A DNA stretch of 64,000 bases from NCBI GenBank assembly GCA_947475445.1, contig CANJLC010000001.1, positions 248,001 to 312,000 on the forward strand. The letters run 5' to 3'. A model generated the notes under the pieces. That model was not told where the DNA came from. It saw only the letters and a list, made by a program, of their open reading frames with translations, and did no database searches. Of the stretch, positions 11,685-49,198 are shown piece after piece. Source of the stretch: Alphaproteobacteria bacterium. GTDB taxonomy: Bacteria; Pseudomonadota; Alphaproteobacteria; Micropepsales; Micropepsaceae. Every line of letters starts with the position of its first letter. The stretch's first letter is position 1. Both the position numbers and the translations under genes were made by a program.

Positions 11685-13931
11685 TTGCCTACGATACGCC
11701 CCAGGCGGGAATGGACTCGGTCGGTTTCAACGCCGTCCTGGTTGGCGATGGGCGTTGGCGTGCTGGCAGTGGCTTCGGGCACGGTCACCTACGCCATTCT
11801 GTCAGGCCTGACGCCTTACACGCCGGGCCGCACCGGACTGGTGACGCTGCTGCTGGTCAATCTGGGCCTGGGGCTGACATTGGCGGCGCTGATCGCCTGG
11901 CGGCTGGTGCGGCTGTGGGCCGAGCGCAAATCCGGCCGCGCCGGCGCGCGGCTGCATGTGCGGCTGGTCAGCTGGTTCAGCACCATCGCGGTGGTGCCCG
12001 CAATCCTGGTGGCGATCTTCGCCGCCGTGACTCTCAACCTTGGCCTGGAGGCCTGGTTCTCCGCACGCGTCAAGGACGCGCTGGATAACGCGGTCAATGT
12101 CGCACAGGTCTATGTCAAGGAACATGAAAGCGGCATTTCCAATGACGTGCGTGAAATCGCCAGCAGCATCGAGCGCGATCCGCAACTGTTCGACGAGAAC
12201 CGCCACGTCAATGCCAGGCTGCTGTTCGCCAAGCTCGGCACGGTGACGCGCAACCGCGGCCTGCAGGCGTCCTATATCCTGGATGGCAAGGGCAACATCC
12301 TGGGCAGCACCAAGCAGCAATTCCTCAAGGACCCCAAGCCGCCATCGCCCGCCGATTTTGCCGAGGCGCGCCAGAATATCCTGATCGATACGCCGGAAAA
12401 CGGCACGGTGACGGCGCTGGTGCAGATGCAGTCGCTGAACGACGCCTACCTGATGGTGGTGCGTGTCGTGGATCCGCAAGTGTTCGGCTATTATTTGCGC
12501 ACCCGCGCGGCGGTGTCCGAGTATAACCGGCTCAACGACAATCGCACGGAAGTGCAGCTGGTGTTCGCCGCGCTCTACGCGGTTGTGTCGCTGGTAATCC
12601 TGCTGGCAGCCATCTGGTCCGGCCTGTGGGCTGCCAACCGGCTGGCGCGGCCCATCTCCGGCCTGATTGATGCGGCCGAGCGTGTCTCGGAAGGCGATCT
12701 TTCGGCACAGGTTGATGTCGAGGATGATGGCGACGAAATCGGCAGGTTGGGGCTGGCCTTCAACCGCATGACGGGACAGCTGGGTGCGCAGCGCGACGAC
12801 CTGGTCAGCGCCAACAGCCAGATTGATGAACGCCGCCGCTTCACCGAAACTGTGCTGTCCGGCGTCAGCGCCGGTGTTATCGGCATTTCCACTGACGGCA
12901 ACCTGACCATCGTCAACCGCGCTGCGGCCCGCCTGCTCAACGCCGCGCCCGAAGAAATGGAAGGCCGGCATTATTCCGAATGCGTGCCCGAACTGGCGGC
13001 CCTGATCCGCAGGGCACTCTCCGAACCGGTGGGCCGCGCCAGCGGCGAGGTGACGATCAAGCGCACCGGCAGCCCGCGCGCCCTGAGCGTGCAGGTGACC
13101 AGCGAGCGCGGCGCGCATGGCTTTGTCGCCACCTTTGACGACATTACGGATCTTGTTTCGGCCCAGCGTACCGCCGCCTGGGCAGACGTCGCCCGCCGCA
13201 TTGCCCATGAAATCAAGAATCCCCTGACGCCCATCCAGCTGTCGGCGGAGCGCCTGAAGCGCAAATACATGGACGAAATATCCACTGATCCCGATATTTT
13301 CCGCCAATGCATCGACACCATCGTGCGCCAGGTGGGCGATATCGGCCGCATGGTCGATGAATTCTCCTCCTTTGCCCGCATGCCGGCACCGGTGATGCGG
13401 CGCGAAAATGCGCAGGAGCTGTTGCAGCAGGCGGTGTTCCTGCAGCGCGTCGGTCATCCCGACATCGCGTTCGACACCCAGGCGCCCCGCGAGCCGGTGC
13501 ATTTCGAGGGTGACGGGCGGCTGATCACCCAGGCGCTGACCAATGTGCTGAAAAATGCGGGCGAGGGCATCGCCGCGCGCCTGGCCGTGGGCAGCAATAC
13601 CGCCGGCAAAATCCGCGTCGCGCTGGAGACCGCCACGAATTCAAATGGGGGCACGACTCTGGCCTTCCGCGTCACCGACAACGGCATCGGCCTGCCGCCG
13701 GAACACCGGCACCGGCTGACAGAACCTTACGTGACCACCCGTGCCAAGGGCACCGGGCTGGGTTTGGCAATCGTGCGCAAGATCATGGAAGACCATGGCG
13801 GCGAAATAACCCTGGGCGATGCGAGTGACGGGGAGGGCGCGGAAGTGACCCTTACATTCCCGTTCTCGCAAAAGGCCCAGCGGCAAAAGGGAAGTGAAGA
13901 TGAGCAAAAACGAATCGTTGATCGCGTCTGA
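11685..13931 (+). CDS. ntrY: Sensor histidine kinase NtrY
   Basis: 748 residues. The N terminus holds three hydrophobic segments (about 20-40, 53-72 and 96-120), then a periplasmic loop and a fourth membrane segment near 290-312, HAMP (RLARPISGLIDAAERVSEGD), PAS, HisKA with His508 ([15 protein letters not shown]) and HATPase (GIGLPPEHRHRLTEPYVTTRAKGTGLGLAIV). The membrane-bound architecture distinguishes NtrY from NtrB. It phosphorylates NtrX in nitrogen and redox/envelope responses. The start is TTG at 11685; no ATG precedes the first membrane segment, so the true start is uncertain. It overlaps ntrX by 32 bases. Confidence 0.93.
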   Translation: MPTIRPRREWTRSVSTPSWLAMGVGVLAVASGTVTYAILSGLTPYTPGRTGLVTLLLVNLGLGLTLAALIAWRLVRLWAERKSGRAGARLHVRLVSWFSTIAVVPAILVAIFAAVTLNLGLEAWFSARVKDALDNAVNVAQVYVKEHESGISNDVREIASSIERDPQLFDENRHVNARLLFAKLGTVTRNRGLQASYILDGKGNILGSTKQQFLKDPKPPSPADFAEARQNILIDTPENGTVTALVQMQSLNDAYLMVVRVVDPQVFGYYLRTRAAVSEYNRLNDNRTEVQLVFAALYAVVSLVILLAAIWSGLWAANRLARPISGLIDAAERVSEGDLSAQVDVEDDGDEIGRLGLAFNRMTGQLGAQRDDLVSANSQIDERRRFTETVLSGVSAGVIGISTDGNLTIVNRAAARLLNAAPEEMEGRHYSECVPELAALIRRALSEPVGRASGEVTIKRTGSPRALSVQVTSERGAHGFVATFDDITDLVSAQRTAAWADVARRIAHEIKNPLTPIQLSAERLKRKYMDEISTDPDIFRQCIDTIVRQVGDIGRMVDEFSSFARMPAPVMRRENAQELLQQAVFLQRVGHPDIAFDTQAPREPVHFEGDGRLITQALTNVLKNAGEGIAARLAVGSNTAGKIRVALETATNSNGGTTLAFRVTDNGIGLPPEHRHRLTEPYVTTRAKGTGLGLAIVRKIMEDHGGEITLGDASDGEGAEVTLTFPFSQKAQRQKGSEDEQKRIVDRV

Positions 13932-44955: not shown

Positions 44956-45654
44956 TTAAGCGGCAACGATCTCATTGCCTTCCGGATCGCGCAGCACATA
45001 GCCGCGGCCCCAGACCGTCTCGATGTAATTGTCGCCATCGGTGGCTGCCGCCAGTTTCTTGCGCAGCTTGCAGATGAAGACGTCGATGATCTTGAGCTCC
45101 GGCTCATCCATGCCGCCATAGAGATGGTTCAGGAACATCTCCTTGGTCAGGGTGGTGCCCTTGCGGAGCGAAAGCAGCTCCAGCATCTGGTATTCCTTGC
45201 CCGTCAAATGGACGCGGCTGCCATCCACTTCGACGGTCTTGGCGTCCAGGTTGACGGTGAGCTTGCCGGTGGTGATGACCGACTGGCTGTGGCCCTTGGA
45301 ACGGCGGACCACGGCCTGGATGCGGGCGACCAGTTCGTCCTTGTGGAAGGGCTTGGTCATGTAATCGTCGGCGCCGAAGCCCAACGCCTTGACCTTGGCC
45401 TCGACAATGGCGTTGCCGGACAGGATGAGGACGGGGGTCTGCACCTTGGCAACCCTAAGGGCCTTTAACACTTCAAAGCCGCTCATGTCGGGCAGCTGAA
45501 GGTCCAGCAAGATAATGTCGTAGTCATAGAGCTTACCGAGATCGATACCCTCTTCACCAAGATCGGTGGTGTAGACGTTAAGGCCTTCGCTGCGCAGCAT
45601 CAGCTCGATGCTTCGCGCCATGGCGCTGTCGTCTTCAATCAGCAATACGCGCAT
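44956..45654 (-). CDS. ctrA: Cell-cycle response regulator CtrA
   Basis: 232 residues. OmpR-type: receiver with Asp51 ([11 protein letters not shown]), Lys in [20 protein letters not shown] and a C-terminal winged helix ([41 protein letters not shown]). It matches CtrA very closely. The last residues are Val-Ala-Ala; an Ala-Ala end is what ClpX recognises, consistent with RcdA-dependent turnover. The master regulator is phosphorylated by the CckA-ChpT relay and controls replication, division and flagellar genes. Confidence 0.98.
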
Positions 45655-45918: not shown

Positions 45919-47252
45919 ATGCGCGTTTTGCTCAAGGAAATAGAGGATATTCCGACCCTCACCCGGTTCGGCCGCGTGGCCCGGATCGAGGGTCTTGCCG
46001 TCGAAGTCACCGGCGCCCAGGGGGCTGTCAGCCTGGGGGGGGGCAGTGCCGCATAAGTATCAGAAATAACAGGAAAATTTCCTGCGAAGTGGTCGGCTTT
46101 CGCGATGGCCGCGCCCTGGTCATGCCGCTGGGCAGCCTGGATGGAATCACGCTGGGCGCCCGCGCCGATTTCGAAGACAAGCCTGCCGCCATTTATCCCT
46201 CAACCGGCTGGCTGGGCCGCGTCGTCAACGGCTTTGGCGAAGCCATGGATGGCAAGGGCGTGCTGGCGCAAGGCACGCAATCCTATGCGCTGAAGGCCTC
46301 ACCGCCGCCCGCGACAGCGCGCGGCCGCGTGGGCAAGAAACTGGATCTGGGCATTCGCGCCCTCAACACCTTCACCACATGCTGCGAAGGCCAGCGCATG
46401 GGTATTTTCTCGGGCAGCGGCGTGGGCAAGTCCACGCTGCTGGCCATGCTGGCGCGCAATTCCAATGCGGACGCCATCGTGATCGGCCTGATCGGCGAGA
46501 GCGGCCGCGAGGTCAAGGAATTCATTGAAGACGACCTGGGCGAAGAGGGCCTGAAACGCAGCGTCGTCATTGCCGCAACATCCGATGAAGCGCCGCTGGT
46601 GCGCCGCCAGGCCGCCTATGTTGCCATGGCGGTGGCCGAAAGCCTGCGTGATGCCGGCCTGAATGTGCTGCTGCTGATGGATAGCGTGACGCGCTTTGCC
46701 ATGGCCCAGCGCGAGATCGGCCTGTCGGCCGGCGAGCCTCCCGCTTCCAAGGGTTACACCCCCACCGTGTTTGCCGAACTGCCCCGCCTGCTGGAACGCG
46801 CAGGTCCTGGTCTGGCCGGCGCGCCGGGCTCCATCACCGGACTGTTTACCGTGTTGGTCGAGGGCGATGACCATAATGAGCCGATCTCGGACGCCGTGCG
46901 CGGCATCCTGGATGGCCATATCGTGATGGACCGTGCCATTGCGGAACGGGGCCGCTTCCCCGCCATTAACATTCTTCGCTCCGTCAGCCGCTCCATGCCC
47001 GGCTGCAACACGGAAGATGAGCAAAAGCTGGTGATTGCGGCTCGCAAGCCGCTGACCATTTACGAAGACATGGCCGAATTGATACGGCTTGGGGCCTATA
47101 AGGCTGGCACGAATCCTGAAGTGGACAGCGCGCCTATTTCCTCAGCCAGCTCAATCATGCCGGCGCGGCGCTGGACAAGACCAACCAGCAGATCGCCAGC
47201 AGCAAGATCGCCACCACCTATGCCGGCTTTGGCGACCAGACCCAGGTGCTGA
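45919..47252 (+). pseudogene. fliI: Flagellar export ATPase fliI, frameshifted and truncated
   Basis: The first part ([20 protein letters not shown]...) is FliI-like to about 46034, then a run of nine Gs (46035-46043) moves it out of frame to a stop at 46054. The same gene resumes in the -1 frame at [21 protein letters not shown] and continues through Walker [11 protein letters not shown] and the [12 protein letters not shown] block up to GTNPEVDS at about 47129. The final ~25 residues are missing, replaced by out-of-frame flgL sequence to a stop at 47252. FliI powers flagellar protein export; this copy is unlikely to be intact unless the G-run is misread. Confidence 0.88.
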
Positions 47253-48043
47253 CCGCCACCATGTACGCCAAGGCGCGCAACGACGCCTATTCGACCGCCA
47301 CTTCGCTGGCCACCACCCAGGCCGACATGCAGGACACCCAGCTGACCTCCCTGTCCGATCTTTCGGCGCAACTGAAAAAAGCCGTCACCGACGCAGTCGG
47401 CAACAATGACGCCGGCACGCTGATGAGCACCGTGCAGAACATTTTCGAACAGGTAACCTCGATCCTCAATTCCAAGGATGCCAGCGGCGACTATATCTAT
47501 GGCGGCGGCAAGACCGGCACCGCGCCCGTCACCGTCACCTCGCTCTCGGCCCTGGCGGCGCTTCCCGCCGTATCGGGCGCCTTCGTCAACGGGACGAACA
47601 AGAAATCGGTGCAGGTGGCCGATGGCCAGACGGTCGCCTATGGCGTCACCGCCTCGGATGTCGGCACCGGGCTGATGCAGTCGCTGAAGGACATCGCCGC
47701 ATTTGATGCCGGCGGCAGCGGCAATTTCTCCGCCACGCCCAATCTCACCCAGGCCCAGAACACGTTCCTCAGCGGCCAGATCACCACGCTGGGAAAGGTG
47801 AACAGCGCGCTCAACATCGCCACCGCCCAGAATGGCAACGCCTATAACCAGCTGAAAGCGGCCACCAGCCAGCAGAGCGCCATGTCCACCTTGTACTCGG
47901 GCTTTGTCTCGGGCCTGCAGGACACCAACCTGGCGGAAGCAGCCACCCAGCTGTCGCTGAACCAGACCGCGCTGCAGGTGGCGCTGCAGGTCACCGCCTC
48001 GCTTAACCAGTTGTCGCTGCTGAATTATCTGCCCATCAAGTAG
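47126..48043 (+). pseudogene. flgL: Flagellar hook-associated protein flgL, 5'-truncated
   Basis: A frame beginning [20 protein letters not shown] has the early flagellin/FlgL helix ([17 protein letters not shown]) and ends with the C-terminal FlgL helix LAEAATQLSLNQTALQVALQ and LLNYLPIK. It lacks its own start and the first residues, and abuts the fliI body in a different frame. The only in-frame start (GTG 47246) would drop the N-terminal coiled coil needed for filament contact. FlgL joins hook to filament. Other flagellar genes are absent. Confidence 0.8.
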
Positions 48044-48097: not shown

Positions 48098-49198
48098 ATG
48101 AACGCGAATTCCAACATACGCATCGTGGCCGCCATGTCGGGCGGCGTGGATTCGTCCGTCACCGCGGCGCTGCTCAAGCGCCAGGGCTATGACGTGGTTG
48201 GCGTGACGCTGCAGCTTTATCCCGGCGAGATCGCGAAGAAGAAAGGCGCCTGCTGCGCCGGCCAGGACATCTATGACGCCAAGCGCGTCGCAGACAGCAT
48301 CGGCATTCCCCATTACGTGCTGGATTACGAAAGCCGCTTCAACCAGAACGTGATGCAGGATTTCGCGGATTCCTATGCCCGCGGCGAAACCCCCATCCCC
48401 TGCGTCCGCTGCAACGAAAAAGTGAAGTTCGCCGACTTGATGGAGATGGCGCGCGGCCTGGGCGCGAGCGCGATGGCCACCGGCCATTATGTCCGCCGCG
48501 TCGAAGGCGCGTCCGGCGCCGAGCTCCATGCCGCAAGCGATACCACGCGCGACCAGAGCTATTTTCTTTTCGCCACCACCCAGGCGCAGCTTGATTATCT
48601 GCGCTTCCCCTTGGGGGACATGGAAAAGACGCAGGTGCGCGCCATCGCCGCCGAGCTTGGCCTGGTCAATGCCGCCAAGCCCGACAGCCAGGATATCTGT
48701 TTCGTGCCCGAAGGCCGCTACACCGACATCGTCAAGAAGCTGCGCCCCGATGCGGCCCGGCCCGGCGATGTGGTGGACCAGGACGGCAAGGTGCTGGCCC
48801 GCCATGACGGCATCCTGCATTTCACCATCGGCCAGCGCAAAGGCCTTGGCCTGTCCGGCAACGAAGAGCCGCTCTTTGTCCTCAAGCTCGATGCCGTGAA
48901 TGCGCGCGTGGTGGTGGGCCCGCGCAGCGCGCTGGGGTCTTCCGCCTGCCTGCTCAAGGATGTGAACTGGCTTTCCCCGGCCAACGCGCCGTTCGATTGC
49001 AACGTGAAAGTGCGTTCCATGCGTCCGCCGGTGGCGGCGCGCGTCACGCCGCTGGATGGCGGCGGGGCGCGGGTGGAACTTGCCGCCAGCGAAGACGCCA
49101 TCGCGCCGGGCCAGGCCTGCGTCTTTTACCGCGATGGACGGGTGCTGGGCGGCGGCTGGATAACCCGCTCCGACAGCGCCCAGATCGCGGCAGAATAG
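48098..49198 (+). CDS. mnmA: tRNA-specific 2-thiouridylase MnmA
   Basis: 366 residues. PP-loop [11 protein letters not shown], catalytic Cys105 ([10 protein letters not shown]) and the persulfide Cys201 ([10 protein letters not shown]), plus [11 protein letters not shown] and a C-terminal beta domain. It thiolates U34 of tRNA-Lys, -Glu and -Gln using ATP and sulfur relay proteins. Confidence 0.97.

Follow-up and report, generated by a model that had tools for sequence, protein, structure and literature searches.

Beside ctrA, the genome examined here carries the flagellar gene fliI in a form that runs directly into flgL, which raises the question of whether a flagellar gene cluster has been deleted at this place from the chromosome or only from its assembly. 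The window, by which we mean the whole stretch of 64,000 nucleotides that was analysed (G000:C1:248001-312000), comes from a genome of 2,166,302 bases in 29 contigs that is 98.44% complete and 0.1% contaminated. By FliI, its nearest named records are the metagenome-assembled Alphaproteobacteria REEB149, REEB202, UBA1301 and CP_BM_RX_R9_30 (78-80% identity); a family UBA1301 has been called a novel alphaproteobacterial one (PMC7966762). Within the window, ctrA on the minus strand is followed by fliI on the opposite strand, which passes directly into flgL, and then by mnmA; the parts of the locus are as follows.

44956..45654, minus strand: ctrA, response regulator of the cell cycle, forming the intact outer flank and transcribed away from fliI (ORF of 232 aa)
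45919..46041, plus strand: 5' piece of fliI (~41 codons), in a frame other than that of the body (tblastn, residues 1-41 of FliI from the relative G009, 93% identity)
46035..46043, plus strand: run of nine Gs, site of the fliI frame loss (sequence; alignment with 11 other genomes)
46038..47132, plus strand: fliI body, residues 40 to ~403 of 443 (tblastn, G009 FliI, 90% identity)
47125..47132, no strand: fliI/flgL junction of the proposed deletion, ~6 bases common to both sides (alignments to G009 fliI and G009 flgL)
47126..48043, plus strand: flgL lacking its start codon and ~10 N-terminal residues, with an open frame from there to the stop (79% identity to G009 FlgL 11-312)
48098..49198, plus strand: mnmA (tRNA 2-thiouridylase family), intact outer flank (the homologue in G031 matches tRNA_Me_trans families)

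The first of these ORFs we take to be ctrA on the basis of its family and of the label given in an earlier sequence-only reading, not of a domain search. The fliI body matches ATP-synt_ab with 282.8 bits and flgL matches Flagellin_C with 25.7 bits (cut-off 23), and mnmA comes after flgL in the intact relatives that were fetched as well. In G026, G019, G073, G007, G033, G010, G067, G063, G078 and G079 the mnmA match has one stop codon in the aligned range, likely at the end of the gene. Amongst 80 named alphaproteobacterial loci fetched by FliI similarity, ctrA is found less than 1.5 kb from fliI and in divergent orientation in 60 of the 73 that could be judged, so that this neighbourhood extends well beyond the genus, and fliJ directly follows fliI in 40 of 75.

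The point at which one gene gives way to the other can be placed closely by comparison with G009. The match to fliI of this relative includes window positions 47087-47131 (44/45 bases) and the match to its flgL begins at 47126 and continues onward; the two thus overlap by ~6 bases, and the join must lie within about 47125-47132, without an insert. Relative to G009, FliI is retained to about residue 402-403 of 443, with ~40 C-terminal residues missing, FlgL is retained from about residue 11 of 319, with the first ~10 residues missing, and no FliJ lies between the two pieces. In the flgL frame, a stop codon (47117-47119) closely precedes the flgL piece and the earliest ATG, GTG or TTG is found at 47246, while the fliI frame continues past the junction, out of frame with flgL, to 47252. 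A functional fliI-flgL gene fusion was considered and is ruled out by the different frames of the two parts at the joint. The junction is real in the sequence as assembled, and the sequence-only reading, which had described a fliI body joined out of frame to a beheaded flgL and had listed the FliI C terminus, FliJ and the flgL start as missing, is borne out on each of these points.

A further break in fliI, absent from that reading and independent of the deletion, is located near the 5' end of the gene, where the first frame switches within the nine Gs at 46035-46043 and closes at the stop 46054-46056. In all 11 other genomes aligned, the G run is interrupted at this site. The frame break may be a real slip or a slip of sequencing or assembly, between which we cannot tell. 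Phase variation at this run was also considered, and is rejected in view of the lack of an uninterrupted run in the other 11 genomes and of the absence of the rest of the flagellum.

What formerly lay between the two stumps can be read from flagellated relatives. In G031 the order from ctrA onwards, according to Pfam matches, is FliI (ATP-synt_ab, T3SS_ATPase_C), FliJ, FlhA (FHIPEP), a sigma-54 activator, FliN, FliH (E 7.9e-4, below its cut-off), FliG, FliF, a hook protein with FlgE_D2, FlgD, FliK, FlgK, FlgL (Flagellin_C) and mnmA. The equivalents of the two break points are 16.0-16.3 kb apart, on the same strand and on single contigs, in six relatives (G014, G016, G031, G080, G087 and G091), and about 20-22.5 kb apart in G022, G028, G029 and G071. 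This intact layout is not universal, as ~270 kb separate fliI from flgL in G013 and the two genes occupy opposite strands in G035. Second, distant FlhA and FliI matches (FliI 37-40% identity), probably representing a second flagellar system, were seen in G013:C16, G028:C1:2922767-2935248 and G071:C1:4924496-4934932. The stumps in the window keep the ancestral order, orientation and flanks, namely ctrA and mnmA, of the flagellated relatives.

In all likelihood, therefore, the flagellar cluster was lost through a single chromosomal deletion of ~16 kb that left fliI and flgL behind as dead stumps, and the earlier suggestion that a deletion had collapsed a flagellar region beside ctrA is upheld by the comparisons with relatives. 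Such a deletion would have removed the DNA between codon ~403 of fliI and codon ~11 of flgL in a recent ancestor, and it probably arose by illegitimate recombination between the few matching bases at the joint. Its flanks would have been ctrA, together with the ctrA promoter, and mnmA, both of which the cell keeps, and the frame of fliI may have been lost additionally in the G run.

The rest of the genome was searched for the genes that such a deletion should have taken away. Over the whole genome there was not a single match to FlhA, FliG_C, Flg_bb_rod or YscJ_FliF, the families that include the flhA and fliF products proposed for this check, nor any match to FliJ at E <= 0.001. The searches with the first four families were each positive in four of 14 control genomes, i.e., in Escherichia coli, Bacillus subtilis, Caulobacter and Thermotoga, all of which are flagellated; the statement of absence covers these four families and FliJ. 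Intact copies of fliI and flgL elsewhere, likewise proposed as a check, were sought without success: neither gene has a second copy in the genome, the remaining ATP-synt_ab and FliI-query matches being distant paralogues. Since the rest of the flagellar set is missing from the genome, the cell very probably has no flagellum and would accordingly lack flagellar motility.

The collection of 69 genomes of the genus allows this locus to be seen amongst its relatives. FlhA is present in 48 of them and absent from 21; if only the 48 genomes of >=90% completeness and <=5% contamination are counted, it is present in 34. In ten of the 21 FlhA-less genomes, including the one studied here, a collapsed ctrA-fliI-(flgL)-mnmA locus lies on one contig, with ten different junctions:

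G000: FliI 1-403 / FlgL 11 on
G025: FliI complete with one stop, FliJ complete, FlgL 246 on
G006: FliI 1-87 / FlgL 229 on
G001: FliI 1-64 / a 62-base stretch matching the end of flgK, then complete FlgL
G015: FliI 1-42 / FlgL 290 on (FlgL piece weak, E 0.034)
G018: FliI 1-55 / no FlgL match (tblastn)
G066: FliI 1-268 with two stops / FlgL 279 on
G084: FliI 1-391 / FlgL 143 on (matches overlap, joint inexact)
G064: FliI 1-131 with a shift / FlgL 26 on
G069: FliI 1-96 with a stop / FlgL 200 on

Both ctrA and mnmA are retained in all ten, and ctrA of the window shares 95-99% identity with that of the other nine. The G025 locus (L056:9829-11582) has a full-length fliI with one in-frame stop together with an intact fliJ, and only the last part of flgL. 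At the G006 locus (L158, about 12992-13235), the fliI stump is separated from the flgL stump by ~245 bases without a match to either gene. Rod-family matches, two in each case, occur in the collapsed genomes G001, G064 and G084 and in none of the other seven, and loss of the cluster therefore does not always equal complete loss. Four more FlhA-less genomes are treated below, and to the remaining seven (G011, G019, G030, G032, G036, G088 and G092) no collapse was assigned; two of these, G036 and G092, have fliI cut off by a contig end, and because fliI, fliJ or genes of the rod family persist in some of the seven, these may be incomplete genomes of flagellated bacteria.

None of the ten collapsed loci retains fewer than the first ~42 codons of fliI. 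A role of this 5' stump as a control element of ctrA was considered and rejected, as synonymous codon identity amongst 22 intact copies of fliI, taken in windows, is 0.44-0.54 across the initial ~70 codons versus 0.516 overall, and as the start of fliI is wholly absent from four genomes of the G065 type.

Two other explanations of the locus have to be weighed against a deletion in the chromosome. The sequence-only reading had pointed out that a chimeric contig would look the same, and an artefact of assembly or binning might also have come about if the assembler had skipped a cluster that is present in most cells; the division of the genome into 29 contigs would fit this, and an overlap of a few bases is the sort of spot at which an assembler could join. 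However, the pieces on either side of the join lie in their ancestral order and orientation and both flanks are in position, FlhA, FliG, FliF, the rod family and FliJ are absent genome-wide even though rod genes are located outside this cluster in many relatives, and the same locus is collapsed in nine separate assemblies, so that an artefact is very unlikely. Alternatively, a stump might still be in use, either as a shortened FliI-type ATPase (ORF 46089-47252) or as a headless FlgL with another role, given that the FliI core is open and under ordinary constraint (dN/dS 0.145), and there is a parallel of a kind in the gammaproteobacterium Lysobacter enzymogenes. In that organism flhA, flhB, fliI and fliR affect twitching (PMC7277350). 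Yet in the window the frame shift has cost FliI its N-terminal part and the deletion has cost it the C terminus, flgL is without a start, and the other export components searched for are all absent. Moreover, the nine other loci cut fliI at other points or, in G025, keep it at full length with an internal stop, which argues that no common product has been kept, and a recent loss explains the constraint equally well; continued use of a stump is accordingly most improbable.

With respect to the number and age of the losses, a tree was built from proteins that we take to be Qor, a DUF1465-like protein, an ABC transporter, CtrA and MnmA. The collapsed genomes are placed amongst flagellated ones, and at least seven changes of state are needed on this quick tree of 38 rows, two of them unlabelled; the tree does not include G003, which had too few columns, and the change count disregards G036 and G092 on account of their contig ends. 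Closest to the genome studied here are the flagellated G009 and the collapsed G025, with which it forms one clade (supports 99-100). As G009 carries FlhA, FliG, rod genes, fliI, fliJ and flgL and is thus flagellated by gene content, the absence in G000 is derived. A single old loss common to G000 and G025 was tried as an explanation and rejected, the corresponding clade being excluded by the AU test (p-AU 0.0134). In quick trees of 38-39 rows G000 groups with G009 (84 and 86), whereas in a careful tree of 12 rows G009 groups with G025 (80/83), with a G000 plus G009 grouping not rejected (p 0.324). Under either branching order it follows that G000 and G025 represent two losses, unless G009 regained the cluster by transfer.

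The loss appears to be recent: dN/dS of the fliI body between G000 and G009 is 0.145, within the range of 0.109-0.171 for ten pairs amongst five flagellated genomes, and dN of FlgL to outgroups is higher from G000 than from G009 in six of six comparisons, by only 0.012-0.048. With FlgL evolving just slightly faster and both frames otherwise open, decay is barely visible. Elsewhere in the tree, G001 and G018 adjoin G061, a genome of only 58% completeness in which fliI and flgL are full-length and flhA is present in part. Compared with G061, the joints of G001 and G018 show overlaps of ~10 bases, as expected for illegitimate recombination, but these are only suggestive because G061 is not their parent.

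The same locus has collapsed independently in other members of the genus, and this goes along with smaller genomes, the median completeness-corrected size being 2.71 Mb in 14 FlhA-less and 3.93 Mb in 34 FlhA-positive genomes (p 1.9e-5; the 48 better genomes, rounded sizes, a test that ignores relatedness). A selective cause might lie behind these losses. Within the window itself the event is an ordinary one. Across the genus, the locus constitutes a natural deletion series, with ten or more collapsed versions that all differ in their break points and stand amongst flagellated relatives, in which independent losses can be counted and the formation of joints, as well as the genes that stay, can be viewed directly.

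One gene of the cluster behaves differently in the four FlhA-less genomes G003, G065, G070 and G075. These lack matches to fliI and flgL as well as to FlhA, FliG_C and the rod family, and carry a full-length FliJ (140-141 aligned residues) adjoining ctrA:

L171:4528-4947: full-length fliJ beside ctrA
L173:12604-13023, minus strand: full-length fliJ beside ctrA
L232:3042-3464: full-length fliJ beside ctrA
L233:3512-3931: full-length fliJ beside ctrA

A role for fliJ without FliI and the export gate is not known. Amongst the four genomes, dN/dS of fliJ is 0.09-0.28 at a dS of 1.4-2.0, i.e., near saturation, and in G025 FliJ has 96% identity to that of G009 with a dN/dS of 0.057, while fliI of the same genome carries a stop. 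In the FliJ tree G065, G070 and G075 form one group (99), with which G003 is not firmly placed. Three of the four branches measure 0.43-0.63 and that of G065 measures 0.14, compared to at most 0.22 in flagellated rows; constraint thus appears relaxed or changed in three of the four, which counts against a strong claim, and as all nine collapsed genomes other than G025 lack FliJ, it is not indispensable. We would therefore suggest only tentatively, and with more doubt than conviction, that FliJ might have a job outside the flagellum in this genus, perhaps one linked to ctrA. If so, repeated deletions beside ctrA would separate what is dispensable in the cluster from a single component that can be retained for a second function.

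A full-text literature search, mostly outside subscription journals, turned up no paper dealing with the locus or with the loss of flagella in the genus. Flagellar loss in separate alphaproteobacterial lineages is already known, and the locus in the window very probably represents an ordinary recent gene loss by deletion; less ordinary is the full-length fliJ beside ctrA in four flagellum-less relatives. For the Caulobacteraceae, convergent flagellar gene loss has been described, with separate losses in at least two alphaproteobacterial lineages nested amongst flagellated relatives, as in the genus considered here, but with missing genes that are described as spread over the chromosome and that those genomes lack completely (PMC12700997). 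In the window, by contrast, cut stumps survive at the joint and give the break points, and ctrA adjoins the scar. In the Rhodobacterales, sporadic losses of the fla1 flagellar gene cluster likewise leave scattered genomes of flagellated clades without the whole cluster, which its authors read as independent losses; there the cluster layout differs, too, and in the accessible text absence is given as counts and not as junctions (PMC12363192). Finally, Lysobacter enzymogenes is similar in being non-flagellated and retaining some flagellar genes including fliI, but different in having kept a working export apparatus (PMC7277350, PMC9927559), whereas in the genome of the window the genes for the export gate, the MS ring and the switch are gone.
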